Of a stretch of DNA of 64,000 nucleotides, positions 2,636-13,555 are shown piece after piece. The notes beneath the pieces were generated by a model. It ran no database searches. It was not told the origin of the DNA and saw only the letters and a program-made list of their open reading frames with translations. Location of the stretch: contig NZ_JXSL01000030.1 in NCBI RefSeq assembly GCF_000829825.1, positions 1,185,501 to 1,249,500 of the forward strand, read 5' to 3'. This DNA comes from Paramagnetospirillum magnetotacticum MS-1. Its GTDB lineage: Bacteria; Pseudomonadota; Alphaproteobacteria; Rhodospirillales; Magnetospirillaceae. How positions within the stretch are numbered: position 1 is the stretch's first letter; each line of letters starts with the position of its first letter. A program made the translations under genes and the position numbers.

Positions 2636-3043
2636 TCAGATGGCGGAGTGGTTCTCGGCGAAGGGCCGGTAGCGCAGATCCTTGCCGATGATGTGGCGCA
2701 TCAGCCATTTGGACAGGAAGTCCAGGGTTTCCGAGGCGGTCACCGAGGCGGGATCGGCAAGGTGGCGGCTGCGCATCTCCATCACTTCCTTGACCATGGA
2801 GCGGTGCACCGCCTGGTGCTCCTCCAGGTCGGGAAAGGCGCAGGCGGCCAGCAGCTTTTCTTCCTCGGCGAAGTGATAGCGGGTGTAATCCAGCAGATCG
2901 GCCAGAACGCTGTCCACTGCGGCGGAGGCATCGCCGCTCATGGCGTCAAAGACCTGATTGATCAGATCGACCAGCTTCTTGTGATGCTCGTCCATGCGCG
3001 CGATTCCGACGCTCAAGTTTTCCGTCCACTGCAGATAGGCCAT
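2636..3043 (-). CDS. Bacteriohaemerythrin
   Basis: A 135-residue single-domain haemerythrin. The di-iron ligand set is complete in order: the His of DEHHKK, the HxxxE of HFAEEE, the HxxxH of HQAVH, and the C-terminal HxxxxD of HIIGKD. The length is typical of stand-alone bacterial haemerythrins, which bind O2 reversibly in the cytoplasm as oxygen carriers or sensors. The start at 3043 (MAYLQW) matches the usual N-terminus and has a GGGGAT ribosome-binding site; the longer open frame to 3385 reads antisense to the dioxygenase gene and is rejected. No obvious operon partner. Compare the haemerythrin domain fused to the chemoreceptor near 11 kb. Confidence 0.92.
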   Translation of the reverse strand: MAYLQWTENLSVGIARMDEHHKKLVDLINQVFDAMSGDASAAVDSVLADLLDYTRYHFAEEEKLLAACAFPDLEEHQAVHRSMVKEVMEMRSRHLADPASVTASETLDFLSKWLMRHIIGKDLRYRPFAENHSAI

Positions 3044-8733: not shown

Positions 8734-11157
8734 ATGTTCAATCTCAACGTCTCTGGACGAATTTATGCCGGGTTCGGCTTGATCGTCGCGCTGCTGCTGG
8801 TGCTCGCCGGGCAGTCCATCCTTACCCTGGGGACATCGAAGCACCAGATCGACAAATATGCCGGAGTTTCTGACAACGCCCAGCGGGTGCTGAGCCTGAA
8901 GGGCGATTTCGCCAATATCCGCCGCAATGTCATCATCTTCACCGACAGTGCCGATCCCAAGGCGCTGGAGCAGATCCGCAAGATTCAGCCCCGCATCGCC
9001 AAGGTCCTTCCCGAGGCTGTCGCCGCCACCACCGACCCTACCCGTAAGGCCAACCTGACCAAGATGCAGGATCTGTTCACCGCCTATATGGCCGGATTCG
9101 ACAAGGTTGCCGAGTTGCGCAAGACCAAGATGGAGCTGGTCGAAAAGCGTATGAACGTGTTGGGTGTTGGTGCCCGCAAGGCGATTTCGTCCATCATGGA
9201 GACGGCCAAGGCCGACGGTGACTTCGAGGCTTCCGCCCAGGCGGGCGACGCCATGGAAAACCTGATGCTGGCCCGCCTCAATGCCGTCAAGTTTCTCGCC
9301 GATCCCTCGGACGACTTCACCAAGGAAACAGAAAACAATATCAAGCAATTCGTCGCCGAGTCCGAGGCCCTGACCAAGCGTCTGCGCAATCCCGAGCGCA
9401 AGCGCCTGGCGCTCGAGGCCGAGGGCAATGCCAAAGCCTATGCCGATGCCTTCGCCCAGGTCGCCGCCGCGACCCATGCCCTCGACAAGCTGGTCTTCAA
9501 GGATATGGCCGCCCAGGCCGCCCAGTTCGCCGATCTGGCTGACCAGACCGTCCACTCCCAGGATCAGGCCATGGACCAGCAAAAGACCGATACGGAAGCC
9601 GGAATGGAGCGCAGCAGCGCCGCGACCTGGACCGGTGCCATCGTCGCTCTGGGCCTGGCCGTTCTGCTGTCCTGGCTGATCGCGCGCTCCATCGTCACGC
9701 CGCTTTCGGCCATGACCGGGGCTATGACCGAACTGTCCAAGGGCAACAAGACCGTGGACATTCCGGCGCGCGACCGCACCGACGAGATCGGCGCAATGGC
9801 AAAGGCCATGGAGATCTTCAAGGAAAACACCCTGAAGATGGACAAGCTGCAGGCCGAGCAGGAAGCCCAGAAGCTTCGTGCCGAGGCCGACCGCAAGGCG
9901 GCGCTGCACCATATGGCCGACACTTTCGAGGAAAGCGTCGGCAAGGTGGTCCAGACCGTCACCTCGGCGGCCACCGAATTGCAGGGCGCGTCCAGCCAGA
10001 TGGCCAGCACCGCGCACGAGACCAGCGCCCAGGCCACCACCGTCGCCTCGGCGGCGACCCAGGCCTCGGCCAATGTGGAGACCGTGGCCGCCGCCACCGA
10101 GGAACTGGCCGCCTCCATTTCCGAGATCGCCAAGCAGGTGGAACGCTCGCAGGTGGTGGCCAACCGCGCCGAGGAGGAGGCCGAAAACACCACCAATCAA
10201 GTGCGCGCCCTGTCCGAGAATGTGGGCCGCATCGGGGAGGTGGTGGTGCTGATCAATGACATCGCCGCCCAGACCAATCTTCTGGCCTTGAACGCCACCA
10301 TCGAGGCGGCGCGGGCCGGTGATGCGGGCAAGGGCTTCGCCGTGGTGGCCAACGAGGTCAAGAATCTCGCCAACCAGACCGCCAAGGCCACCGATGAAAT
10401 CGCCAGCCAGATCAAGGCGGTGCAGGAAGGCACCGGCAATGCGGTGAAGGCCATCGACACCATCTCCAAGGTCATCTCGGAAATGGGCGAGATCAGCGCC
10501 TCGGTCGCCTCCGCTGTGCAGGAACAGACCGCCGCCACCGGCGAAATCGCCCGCAATGTGGAACAGGCCGCCGCAGGCACCGCCGAGGTTTCCAGCAACA
10601 TCAATTCGGTGGAGCAGGCGGCCCGCGAAACCGGCCATGCCGCCGAGCAGATCAGCGAATCGGCCACCGACCTGTCTCGCCAAGCGGAATATCTGCGCGC
10701 CGAGGTCAGCCGTTTCCTCCATCAGGTGCGTGCCGACAAGAACGATATGAAGATCCTGGTATGGGACAACGCTTTGAACACCGGCGAGTCGTCCATCGAC
10801 CGGCATCACCGTGAAATGTTCGATCAGGTCAACCGCTATTACGGCGAGATGATGAGCGGCAATGGCGATGTCGCCGTCCAGGGCATCCTATCGCTGGTTC
10901 CCACCACCTTCGTTCCCCATTTCAAGGAGGAGGAGGATCTGATGTCCCGCCGTGGCTATCCCGGCATCGACGAACATCGCGGACGTCACCGCGAATTCCT
11001 CGACGCCTTCGAGAGTCACAAGCGGGCGGTGGAAGCCGGAAAAGATGGGGCGAGCGGAGCGTTGTTCCAGTTCGCCGCCACTTGGCTGAAGGATCATATC
11101 CACTACGAGGACGGCAAGATCGCGGCCTTCCTGAAGGACAAGAAGAGCGTCGCCTGA
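8734..11157 (+). CDS. Methyl-accepting chemotaxis protein with C-terminal haemerythrin domain
   Basis: The 807-residue receptor has a first membrane helix (about 8-32), a helical periplasmic ligand domain, a second membrane helix (about 296-317), a HAMP linker, a full cytoplasmic signalling domain with the conserved hairpin tip (around [21 protein letters not shown]), and from residue 672 a haemerythrin domain. The latter keeps the di-iron ligands: DRHH, HFKEEE, HRGRH and HIHYED. DcrH of Desulfovibrio is the known precedent, where such a domain senses O2. The start at 8734 follows GGGGGT; an upstream frame to 8686 lacks support. Its neighbour at 11.5 kb is a close paralogue without the extra domain. 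No C-terminal CheR-docking pentapeptide is seen. Confidence 0.95.
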
Positions 11158-11164
11158 CGCTGAC

Positions 11165-11192
11165 GGGGCGGAAGGCCGGTCCCTTCCGCCCC
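11165..11192 (+). terminator. Hairpin immediately after first chemoreceptor
   Basis: GGGGCGGAAGG (11165-11175) pairs with CCTTCCGCCCC (11182-11192) across a 6-nt loop. It starts 7 bp after the stop codon. No T-run follows, so it may act together with the second hairpin at 11242. Confidence 0.5.
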
Positions 11193-11241
11193 CTGGCCTT
11201 GCGATCTTCCCCGCATAGTCACGTTCGAACACCACCATGTG

Positions 11242-11270
11242 AAAAGGCGCCGATGAAACCGGCGCCTTTT
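11242..11270 (+). terminator. Intrinsic terminator of the first chemoreceptor gene
   Basis: AAAAGGCGCC (11242-11251) pairs with GGCGCCTTTT (11261-11270) around a 9-nt loop. The A and T runs at both ends make it look like a bidirectional Rho-independent terminator. Confidence 0.75.
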
Positions 11271-11397
11271 CACATTGACCTGCCTGCCTCGCTTTGACGG
11301 GCCCTCGCGGGTCATCAGGGGGGGATGCGCCACAAACTTCATCGCAATAGGTCATACACAATTACAAATTGAATGGCTCCCTATGACATTAGATCAA

Positions 11398-11457
11398 TGA
11401 GTCTAGTGCATGATACTTGGTATAATCATATGCGTTACTAAGTATAAGTACTACCAA
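11398..11457 (+). promoter_or_regulatory. AT-rich promoter region of the second chemoreceptor
   Basis: A consensus TATAAT lies at 11421-11426, about 70 bp before the start codon. The matching -35 position (11398-11403, TGAGTC) is weak. TTGGTA (11417-11422) is mirrored by TACCAA (11452-11457), so a regulator could bind across the promoter. The whole stretch 11340-11460 is markedly AT-rich against a GC-rich background. Confidence 0.45.
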
Positions 11458-11494
11458 ATCATTGGTGGCTCATATGCCGGAAAGGAGCCTCATC

Positions 11495-13513
11495 ATGCTC
11501 GCTTTAGGCGTCTCAACGAGAATTTATGTGGGATTCGGGCTGGTTCTGCTGCTGCTTGTGGCGTTGGCCGGGTTGTCGATCAGCACGTTGGGCAGTTCCG
11601 GCGCGCGCATGGAGAGTTATGCCGATGTTTCCGATAACGCCCAGCGGGTGCTTCGGATCAATGGCGGCTTTTCCGAAATCCGTCGCAATGTGGTGATCTT
11701 TGCCGAAATGGGCGATCACAAGGCCCTGGAAGCGGTAAAGGCGGCGGAGACCCGTCTGCGCAAGGATCTGTCCGAAGCGGCTGCCCACACGACCCATCCG
11801 GGCCGCAAGGCGTCCCTTGCCCAGATGCAGACGTTGTTCGATGCCTATATGAGCGGCTTCAACAAGGTCGCCGCCCTACGCGATTCCAAGGAAGATTTGG
11901 TCGAGAAACGCCTGAATGTGGCCGGTGTCTCGGCTCGCAGGGAATTGAGCGAAGTGGTGCAGGGCGCCATGGCGGATGGCGATTTCGAAGCCGCCGCCCT
12001 GGCCGGAATCGCCGAGGAAGCCCTGATGCTGACCCGGATCAACGCCCTGAAATTCCTGGCCGAGCCTAACGAGAACCTGGCCCAGCAAGCTCTGGCCAAT
12101 GCCGCGAAATTCGTCGAGGAGGCCGAGGCGCTGGTCAAGCGCCTGCGGAGCCCCGAGCGCAAGCGTTTGGCCGCCGATGCGGAGAAAGGCGCCAAGGAAT
12201 ATCGCGACGCCTTCGTCTCGGTCGTGGCGGTAAGCCAGGATCTGGCCAAACTGGTCTTCAAGGACATGGCGGGCATCGCCGCTCAATTCGCCGATCTCGC
12301 CGCCCAGACCGTCCATTCCCAGGACGAGACCATGGATCAACAGAAGGCGGAAACCGAGGCTGGCATGGCGCGCAGCAATACCGCAACCTGGAGCGGTTCC
12401 GCGGTCGCCCTGGTCCTGGGGGTGATCCTGTCCTGGCTGATCGCGCGCTCCATCGTCGGGCCGCTCTCGGGCATGACGCTTGCCATGACCGAGTTGTCAA
12501 AGGGCAACAAATCCATCGAAATTCCGGCGCGCGAGCGCCAGGACGAGATCGGCGCCATGGCCGCCGCCATGGAGATTTTTTTGCAAAACACCCTGAAGAT
12601 GGACCGGATGCAGGCCGAGCAGGAGGCGCAGAAGGTCAAGGCCGACGCCGAGCGCAAGGCGGCCTTGCGCCTGATGGCGGACACCTTCGAATCCAGCGTC
12701 GGCAAGGTGGTGCAGACCGTGACCTCGGCGGCGACCCAGCTGCAGGGCGCGTCGAGTCAGATGGCGGGCACCGCCCATGAAACCGCCGCCCAGGCGACCA
12801 CCGTGGCTTCCGCCGCGCAACAGGCCTCGGCCAATGTGGAAACCGTGGCCGCCGCCACCGAGGAATTGTCGTCCTCCATCTCCGAGATCGCCCGTCAGGT
12901 GGAGCGCTCGCGCGAGGTTTCCACCCGGGCGGAGCAGGAGGCGCAGTTCACCACCGATCAGGTCCGCACCCTGTCCGAAAATGTCGGCCGGATCGGCGAC
13001 GTGCTGGGCCTGATCACCGATATTGCGTCCCAGACTAATTTGCTGGCCTTGAACGCCACCATCGAGGCGGCGCGGGCCGGTGAAGCGGGCAAGGGCTTCG
13101 CCGTGGTGGCCAACGAGGTCAAGAACCTCGCCAACCAGACCGCCAAGGCCACCGACGAGATCGCCCAGCAGATCAAGGCGGTGCAGGAAGGCACCAGCAA
13201 TGCGGTGAACGCCATCAGCGCCATCACCAAGGTGATCACCGAAATGGGTGAGATCAGCGCCTCGGTCGCCTCCGCCGTCCAGGAGCAGACCTCGGCCACC
13301 AGCGAGATCGCCCGCAATGTGGAACAGGCGGCGGCCGGAACTTCGGAAGTATCCAGCAATATCGTGTCCGTGGAACAGGCCGCCCGCGAAACCGGCGGCG
13401 CCGCAGAGCAGATCCACGAATCCGCCGATGACTTGTCCCGGCAGGCGGAATATCTGCGGGCCGAGGTCGGGCGTTTCCTGTCCGAGGTGCGCGACGATAA
13501 GGCTGTCGCCTGA
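11495..13513 (+). CDS. Methyl-accepting chemotaxis protein (paralogue of the upstream receptor)
   Basis: The 672-residue receptor has the same architecture as its neighbour up to the end of the signalling domain: membrane helix 1 (about 8-30), helical periplasmic domain, membrane helix 2 (about 296-316), HAMP and signalling hairpin. It ends at [10 protein letters not shown] without the haemerythrin domain. The two genes are near-identical at DNA level over the signalling tip, while the periplasmic parts differ more, as expected after tandem duplication with conserved signalling. The start at 11495 has an AAGGAG ribosome-binding site 7 bp upstream, better than the frame start at 11462. Ligand unknown. 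Confidence 0.94.
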
Positions 13514-13520
13514 TGTCAAG

Positions 13521-13548
13521 CGGGGCGGAGGAATGATCCTCCGCCCCG
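13521..13548. terminator. Terminator between chemoreceptor and beta-glucosidase genes
   Basis: CGGGGCGGAGGA (13521-13532) pairs with TCCTCCGCCCCG (13537-13548), a perfect 12-bp stem with a 4-nt ATGA loop. It is followed by a T-rich stretch (TTGCTTTC). It sits between convergent genes and can serve both. Confidence 0.75.
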
Positions 13549-13555
13549 TTGCTTT

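Follow-up and report, generated by a model that had tools for sequence, protein, structure and literature searches.

Two tandem chemoreceptor genes of Paramagnetospirillum magnetotacticum MS-1, here called R1 and R2, were analyzed in a 64,000-nucleotide stretch of contig NZ_JXSL01000030.1 (positions 1,185,501 to 1,249,500; hereafter the window). Both genes are intact and lie on the + strand, and together they span window positions 8734-13513. R1 (8734..11157, 807 residues) encodes a chemoreceptor with a C-terminal haemerythrin (Hr) domain, and R2 (11495..13513, 672 residues) encodes a chemoreceptor without one; both were defined by open reading frame and profile matches, and the start of R2 by sequence. 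Probably, R1 is a DcrH-like receptor with two inputs, and R2 is an old paralogue that has lost the same Hr domain by an in-frame internal deletion. The pair appears to illustrate, on a modest scale but clearly, the excision of a sensor module from a receptor.

Domain architecture of R1 and R2

The Hr domain of R1 comprises residues 677-800 (10762..11133, + strand), as defined by matches to TIGR02481, NF033749 and PF01814, alignment with DcrH, and the metal ligands. The PF01814 Hemerythrin model matched in R1 only (46.3 bits, cut-off 25.3), and the bacteriohemerythrin model NF033749 scored 88 bits on R1 against a cut-off of 84. All seven diiron ligands (five His, one Glu and one Asp) are present as H692, H729, E733, H748, H752, H788 and D793, and this HHEHHHD pattern was found in 20 of the 20 Hr rows examined, a check made apart from the 12 Hr rows added in the order-wide tree described below. 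In the full-length model, the domain has the four-helix Hr fold, with a match to 2avk (root-mean-square deviation (rmsd) 2.3, TM-score by target 0.86, Foldseek E 0.011). By its domain order, ligands and fold, R1 is a haemerythrin-domain chemoreceptor of DcrH type; R2, which has no Hr, is not. The initial annotation had assigned a C-terminal haemerythrin with complete iron ligands to the first gene only, and these results agree with it.

Both proteins have two hydrophobic segments and HAMP and MCPsignal domains that score above the Pfam cut-offs, and they align without a gap from the start to the linker. In R1, the transmembrane segments were placed by hydropathy at about residues 12-32 (TM1, 8767..8829) and 303-321 (TM2, 9640..9696), with the periplasmic domain at about residues 34-296 (8833..9621), HAMP at residues 315-365 (9676..9828, PF00672) and MCPsignal at residues 469-632 (10138..10629, PF00015). 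The Pfam matches in R2 place HAMP at 12437..12589 and MCPsignal at 12908..13390, and all of these features are on the + strand. The periplasmic domain of R1 was assigned the helical-bimodular (HBM) fold from an AlphaFold model (pLDDT 86, six helices) and structure matches, of which the best was McpS (2yfa/2yfb; Z 19.8, rmsd 2.0, 229-230 residues aligned) and the next best PilJ (Z 16.2, rmsd 5.6); a profile match to 2yfa (E 3.4e-4) covered parts of the domain. The two stacked helical bundles and six helices that define the McpS fold are present in the R1 model, and R2 was assigned the same fold through 59% identity to the periplasmic part of R1 in the gapless alignment. This HBM likeness is at the level of fold and not of Pfam membership. 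The common architecture first proposed for the tandem receptors is thus borne out, since both have an McpS-like periplasmic fold, HAMP and a signalling hairpin. Four arginines (R63, R64, R104 and R181) are invariant across 14 aligned periplasmic domains, which is only a hint of organic-acid binding.

The 3′ end of R2 and the direction of change

In the window, the pair is flanked by genes that we take, from our own reading of their translations, to be thiC and a glycosidase-like (GH1) gene. Genomes from 17 members of the genus were compared, including that of the window, G001 (Paramagnetospirillum caucaseum SO-1) and G013 (a Phaeospirillum metagenome-assembled genome). An R1 orthologue was found in 6 of the 16 other genomes, with a periplasmic-domain identity of 63-81%, and all six have both Hr and the upstream thiC. 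The glycosidase gene lies downstream of the orthologue in G006, G001 and G011, the contig of G013 ends just past the orthologue, and G009 and G010 have other content downstream.

In a family tree of 58 rows of at least 600 residues (20 with Hr and 38 without), three Hr changes were needed, and R2 was the sole Hr-less row of a clade of eight with 100/100 support. The order-wide tree contained 56 rows (32 with Hr and 24 without) after omission of new rows with a match start after residue 60 and of all rows that were shorter than 640 residues, truncated by a contig end or terminated by AEF or EEF. Six Hr changes were needed in this tree, five of them forced by starred branches, and R2 was again the sole Hr-less row of its clade. 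R2, G105_L163 and G021_L131 are each Hr-less within starred groups that otherwise have Hr, while G015_L132, which is on a long branch in this tree and in the WAEF clade of the family tree, was left out of the count of losses. R1 and R2 do not form a sister pair. By parsimony, the Hr changes would be losses and not gains.

The 3′ end of R2 was compared with the single-copy loci by blastn. Against G006, the end of R2 and its flank gave two collinear blocks (81% over 63 nucleotides (nt) and 84% over 115 nt) around an Hr-sized gap, and against G001 the blocks were 80% over 61 nt and 79.5% over 44 nt (stop to stop, E 3.9e-5), which imply an in-frame difference of 405 nt. Hr-less relatives mostly end at about V-R-small residue; R2 continues as VRDDKAVA-stop, which resembles the linker VRADKA fused to an Hr end such as the LRDKKAVA-stop of G001. 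The R2 tail matched the Hr end of G001 at 19 of 24 nt, ranking first of 42 Hr-less methyl-accepting chemotaxis protein (MCP) tails (distinct tails within 60 residues of the signalling domain, with R2 itself included as L010). From the blastn blocks, the tail rank and the G105 replicate described next, the tail (13487..13513, + strand) is the likely junction between the MCP-Hr linker and the last codons of the lost haemerythrin. Because all seven companions of R2 in its fully supported clade have Hr, and because the 3′ end of R2 matches the loci of G006 and G001 on both sides of the gap, the best reading is that R2 secondarily lost Hr rather than never gaining it.

A replicate was found in G105, which belongs to another family. 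The Hr-less receptor L163 (604-2643, + strand) is 83.5% identical over 2024 nt to the Hr-bearing receptor L162 (637-3132, - strand), and one in-frame 411-nt deletion with two bases of overlap takes out Hr. L163 retains EVMAA-stop as its tail, along with some 195 nt of the 3′ flank. This pair is like R1 and R2 in that an Hr-bearing receptor has an Hr-less paralogue through clean removal of Hr, but its genes are on separate contigs (C23 and C42) and are less diverged in the shared part. Deletion would also be the mechanism in R2, by analogy with this pair, which is the only clean case.

A receptor of G021 (L131, 1740-3770, + strand) also groups with Hr-bearing rows. It ends in FLHQVRAG and keeps no Hr end, and no Hr remnant was found downstream of it; it would be a further and different loss of Hr. 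Candidates for a pseudogene haemerythrin after R2 or after the G021 receptor proved to be chance-level tblastn matches.

Origin of R2

The initial annotation described the signalling DNA of the two genes as near-identical and suggested gene conversion. The nucleotide identity between R1 and R2 is 66.3% in the periplasmic part (residues 1-300), 79.8% in the HAMP-linker part (301-440), 83.7% in the signalling part (441-665) and 88.1% in the tip (500-600), and the longest identical runs are 41 nt; near identity was not found. For R1 and its G006 orthologue, the identities in the same four parts are 80.7, 92.6, 92.4 and 92.7%, and in every one of these parts all six orthologues are closer to R1 than R2 is. 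In the tip protein, R1 is 99-100% identical to each of the six orthologues versus 86% to R2. R1 and R2 resemble each other far more than chance would allow, yet only as paralogues ordinarily do, with the resemblance concentrated in a conserved domain. The synonymous distances between R1 and R2 are 0.30 in the tip, 0.48 in the signalling part and 1.06 in the periplasmic part, and those from R1 to its orthologues are 0.30-0.51, 0.31-0.50 and 0.56-0.98, respectively; the tip does not set R1 and R2 apart from the orthologues, and the signalling part hardly does so. The ratio of non-synonymous to synonymous change (dN/dS) between R1 and intact R2 is about 0.2-0.3. No significant exchange tract between R1 and R2 was found by sliding identity, run test or trees, and the longest-run test gave p values of 0.06 (whole), 0.27 (signalling) and 0.05 (signalling, without outgroup). 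The suggestion of gene conversion is therefore not supported, with identity favoring the orthologues in every region, although a short old conversion tract in the tip is possible, given the synonymous distance there.

A recent local tandem duplication, with the copies kept alike by gene conversion, would fit the tip identity of R1 and R2, which is slightly above that of R2 to other copies (84.5-87.1%), the tip synonymous distance, which equals the lowest of R1 to any orthologue, the identity over residues 510-570 (92.2%, where R2 and any other copy share no more than 90.6%), and the run test restricted to the ingroup. It is nevertheless highly improbable. The regional identities all place R1 with its orthologues, the remaining run tests are not below 0.06, and the runs that R2 shares with G006, G013, G009 and G001 reach 57 nt versus 41 nt with R1. 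In approximately unbiased (AU) tests, the periplasmic part (p 6.8e-8) and the full set of shared columns (p 7.7e-6) rejected an R1+R2 clade, third positions rejected it weakly (p 0.036, weaker than with the full data), and the HAMP-signalling part alone did not reject it (p 0.085). The alignment with orthologues that had been proposed as a means of timing the duplication thus speaks against a recent local event. We give just as little credence to a gain of Hr by R1 after the duplication, with R2 as the older state. Hr-less homologues are common, and six of seven matches outside the order, among the best two candidates per genome, end at residues 667-668 (scoring was restricted to a few top candidates in each genome, so that the numbers are lower bounds). 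However, every other row in the clade of R2 carries Hr, other Hr-bearing clades place Hr at the same position behind a similar linker, and the divergence of Hr tracks that of the receptor (R1-Hr is 80% identical to that of G006, 67% to G001, 58% to G011 and 42% to G016). The proposed duplication followed by gain or loss of an O2-sensing module is thus supported as a loss in R2, and not as a gain in R1.

R2 may have come to stand beside R1 through an ancient duplication with losses elsewhere or through a lateral arrival. A separate R2 was sought in the other 54 family genomes and found in none, the best matches being R1 orthologues; the pair, far from occurring as both forms in all relatives, is present in 1 of the 55 family genomes searched, that of the window. 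An ancient duplication consequently needs several losses. Import of an Hr-less R2 from an unsampled relative by homologous recombination beside R1 is a serious possibility, though short of probable, and is compatible with Hr loss. Besides the empty genomes, it draws on the placement of R2 outside R1+G006+G013+G009+G010+G001 in the whole-length DNA tree (91/99, not starred) and in the protein trees (100/99 in the family tree and 99/94 in the order-wide tree), on G011 as the row nearest to R2 by path in the family tree, and on the final 200 columns of the downstream gene, where identity is 93.5% to G011 against 89.0% to G006 or G001. In contrast, the grouping of R2 with G011 is unsupported (52/29), the rest of the downstream gene has no donor-like pattern, and the G+C content of R2 (63.9%, third-position 81.6%) matches that of R1 (62.5 and 82.1%). 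The third-position make-up of R2 was flagged as unlike that of the alignment.

Several points weigh against a two-input R1 and a deletion in R2. The R2 tail taken alone is weak, as two unrelated tails reach 18 and 17 of 24 nt, and no Hr remnant was found downstream of R2, a result that is consistent with a deletion but provides no additional trace of one. A direct repeat around Hr (GACAAGAA) was rejected as the cause of deletion, as it is present in R1 only, has eight bases and is weak (p 0.02); the other seven Hr genes compared have direct repeats of six or seven bases with different letters. The branching point of R2 is not resolved by the signalling part alone, and 3 of the 38 Hr-less rows of the family tree, none of them in the clade of R2, are cut at contig ends so that their state is unseen. 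Neither periplasmic domain reached the Pfam HBM model PF16591 (18.2 and 20.0 bits, cut-off 29.8), the 4HB_MCP model scores as well on that of R2, and the full-length model of R1 is weak (pLDDT 75, pTM 0.39). In Magnetospirillum gryphiswaldense, single MCP deletions, two Hr-MCPs included, are described as having no severe swim-halo defect (PMC12442639).

Locus features and related receptors

The preferred start of R2 is the ATG at 11495, with GGAAAGGAG upstream, and R1 and R2 are separated by 337 nt. This gap contains two strong hairpins at 11165-11192 and 11237-11275 (region 11165..11275, + strand; fold z -5.0 and inverted repeat), the second of which is a long, near-perfect inverted repeat with a stem of 16 pairs. 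A pattern scan listed neither hairpin as a terminator with a T-run, and no sigma-70-like promoter pattern was found between R1 and R2. The 337 nt upstream of R2 were compared with the loci of six other copies and had no match in any of them. A further hairpin lies 3′ of R2 (13519..13550, + strand, fold z -5.75), with a position and letters common to the flank after the single-copy gene of G006. The intergenic hairpin region is the probable terminator region of R1. Because strong hairpins follow each gene and the gap is long, separate transcription is suggested, and R2 is probably transcribed on its own.

The genome of the window (4.52 Mb, 36 contigs) has 50 haemerythrin matches and 63 MCPsignal matches, which include one under the cut-off and one that is a second stretch of another's frame. 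Comparison of the two match lists gave four frames with Hr after MCPsignal, namely R1, C22:101k, C30:200k and C23:111k; a candidate split MCP-Hr at C27:250345 is in fact a stand-alone haemerythrin gene. A further haemerythrin match, at window positions 2672-3007 (- strand) within a 252-residue frame, lies about 6 kb upstream of R1. A small haemerythrin gene is near the same locus in G006 and G001, which may be chance given the number of matches genome-wide.

Elsewhere, among the few top candidates scored in each genome, tandem receptors with an R1-like signalling part were found in G016 (L178, 208-2685 and 2790-5339, + strand), both with Hr. A separate Hr-less clade of 19 rows (L110, L112, L127, L145 and others) has a WAEF or WEEF end in 15 of its 17 uncut members. 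These ends resemble the CheR tether, and Hr and the tether may be alternative C-terminal ends.

Discussion

The McpS-like periplasmic domain of R1 probably reads a small organic acid and signals through the membrane and HAMP to the signalling hairpin, which probably also receives O2 or redox information from the cytoplasmic diiron Hr at its end. A single hairpin in R1 would then integrate the organic-acid cue from the periplasm with the O2/redox cue from inside the cell. An association of HBM domains with organic acids is described, with CtpL as an exception that binds a loaded binding protein (PMC5126104). The Hr domain of DcrH is described as binding O2 with a redox-dependent change of its N-terminal loop, and signalling from Hr to the MCP hairpin in full-length receptors as unclear (PMC9388753). 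In R1, the N-terminal side of Hr is the side that joins the signalling hairpin. The in-frame deletion in R2 would have placed the final few codons directly behind the MCP-Hr linker, with the stop and 3′ flank staying in place; R2 would keep its periplasmic input and its output, and would be blind to O2 and relay the periplasmic cue only. The pair may plausibly sense two cues through similar tips. The analysis shows the architecture, diiron ligands, fold, phylogeny and collinearity of the locus; O2 sensing, the cue ligands, the direction of the response and any cooperation between R1 and R2 are what we infer. A broader scheme, which we consider unlikely, is that Hr is order-wide a cut-out module that is repeatedly deleted in frame at the same linker to leave an O2-blind twin that shares its ligand domain and tip with the O2-reading form, the twin in the window serving in mixed clusters to compare the cue with and without O2 weighting.

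R1 and R2 offer a natural control from a strongly aerotactic group: their periplasmic domains are of one kind, their signalling parts align without gaps, and only R1 has Hr. The G105 pair is a cleaner control, with 83.5% identity in the part common to both genes and a single 411-nt deletion between them. What may be novel is the recurrent, clean removal of Hr, together with the receptor pairs as natural controls. A literature search joining hemerythrin with helical bimodular gave no match, and one on chemoreceptor domain loss and gene conversion found nothing apt; neither shows absence from print.

Among known systems, MCPs with a C-terminal Hr are described as the commonest Hr architecture with identified partner domains (33 sequences, and 14 more with HAMP; PMC4919030). 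Organic-acid receptors of the HBM type (McpS, McpK and McpQ) have a periplasmic fold like that of R1, with about 16% identity between McpS and the R1 domain; the accessible text on them mentions no Hr, while R1 has one (PMC5126104). MCP-Hr1 and MCP-Hr2 of M. gryphiswaldense, likened to R1 by description, are Hr-bearing chemoreceptors in a magnetotactic relative (PMC12442639). DcrH of Desulfovibrio vulgaris shares with R1 a periplasmic domain, HAMP, MCP and C-terminal Hr with seven diiron ligands (PMC9388753). DcrH-Hr (2avk) is the best solved match of the R1 Hr, with about 26% identity. The periplasmic domain of R1 has the McpS fold, and the likeness to DcrH is drawn from the order of the parts and from Hr. 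R1 thus belongs to a known kind of receptor, of which R2 is a derivative.

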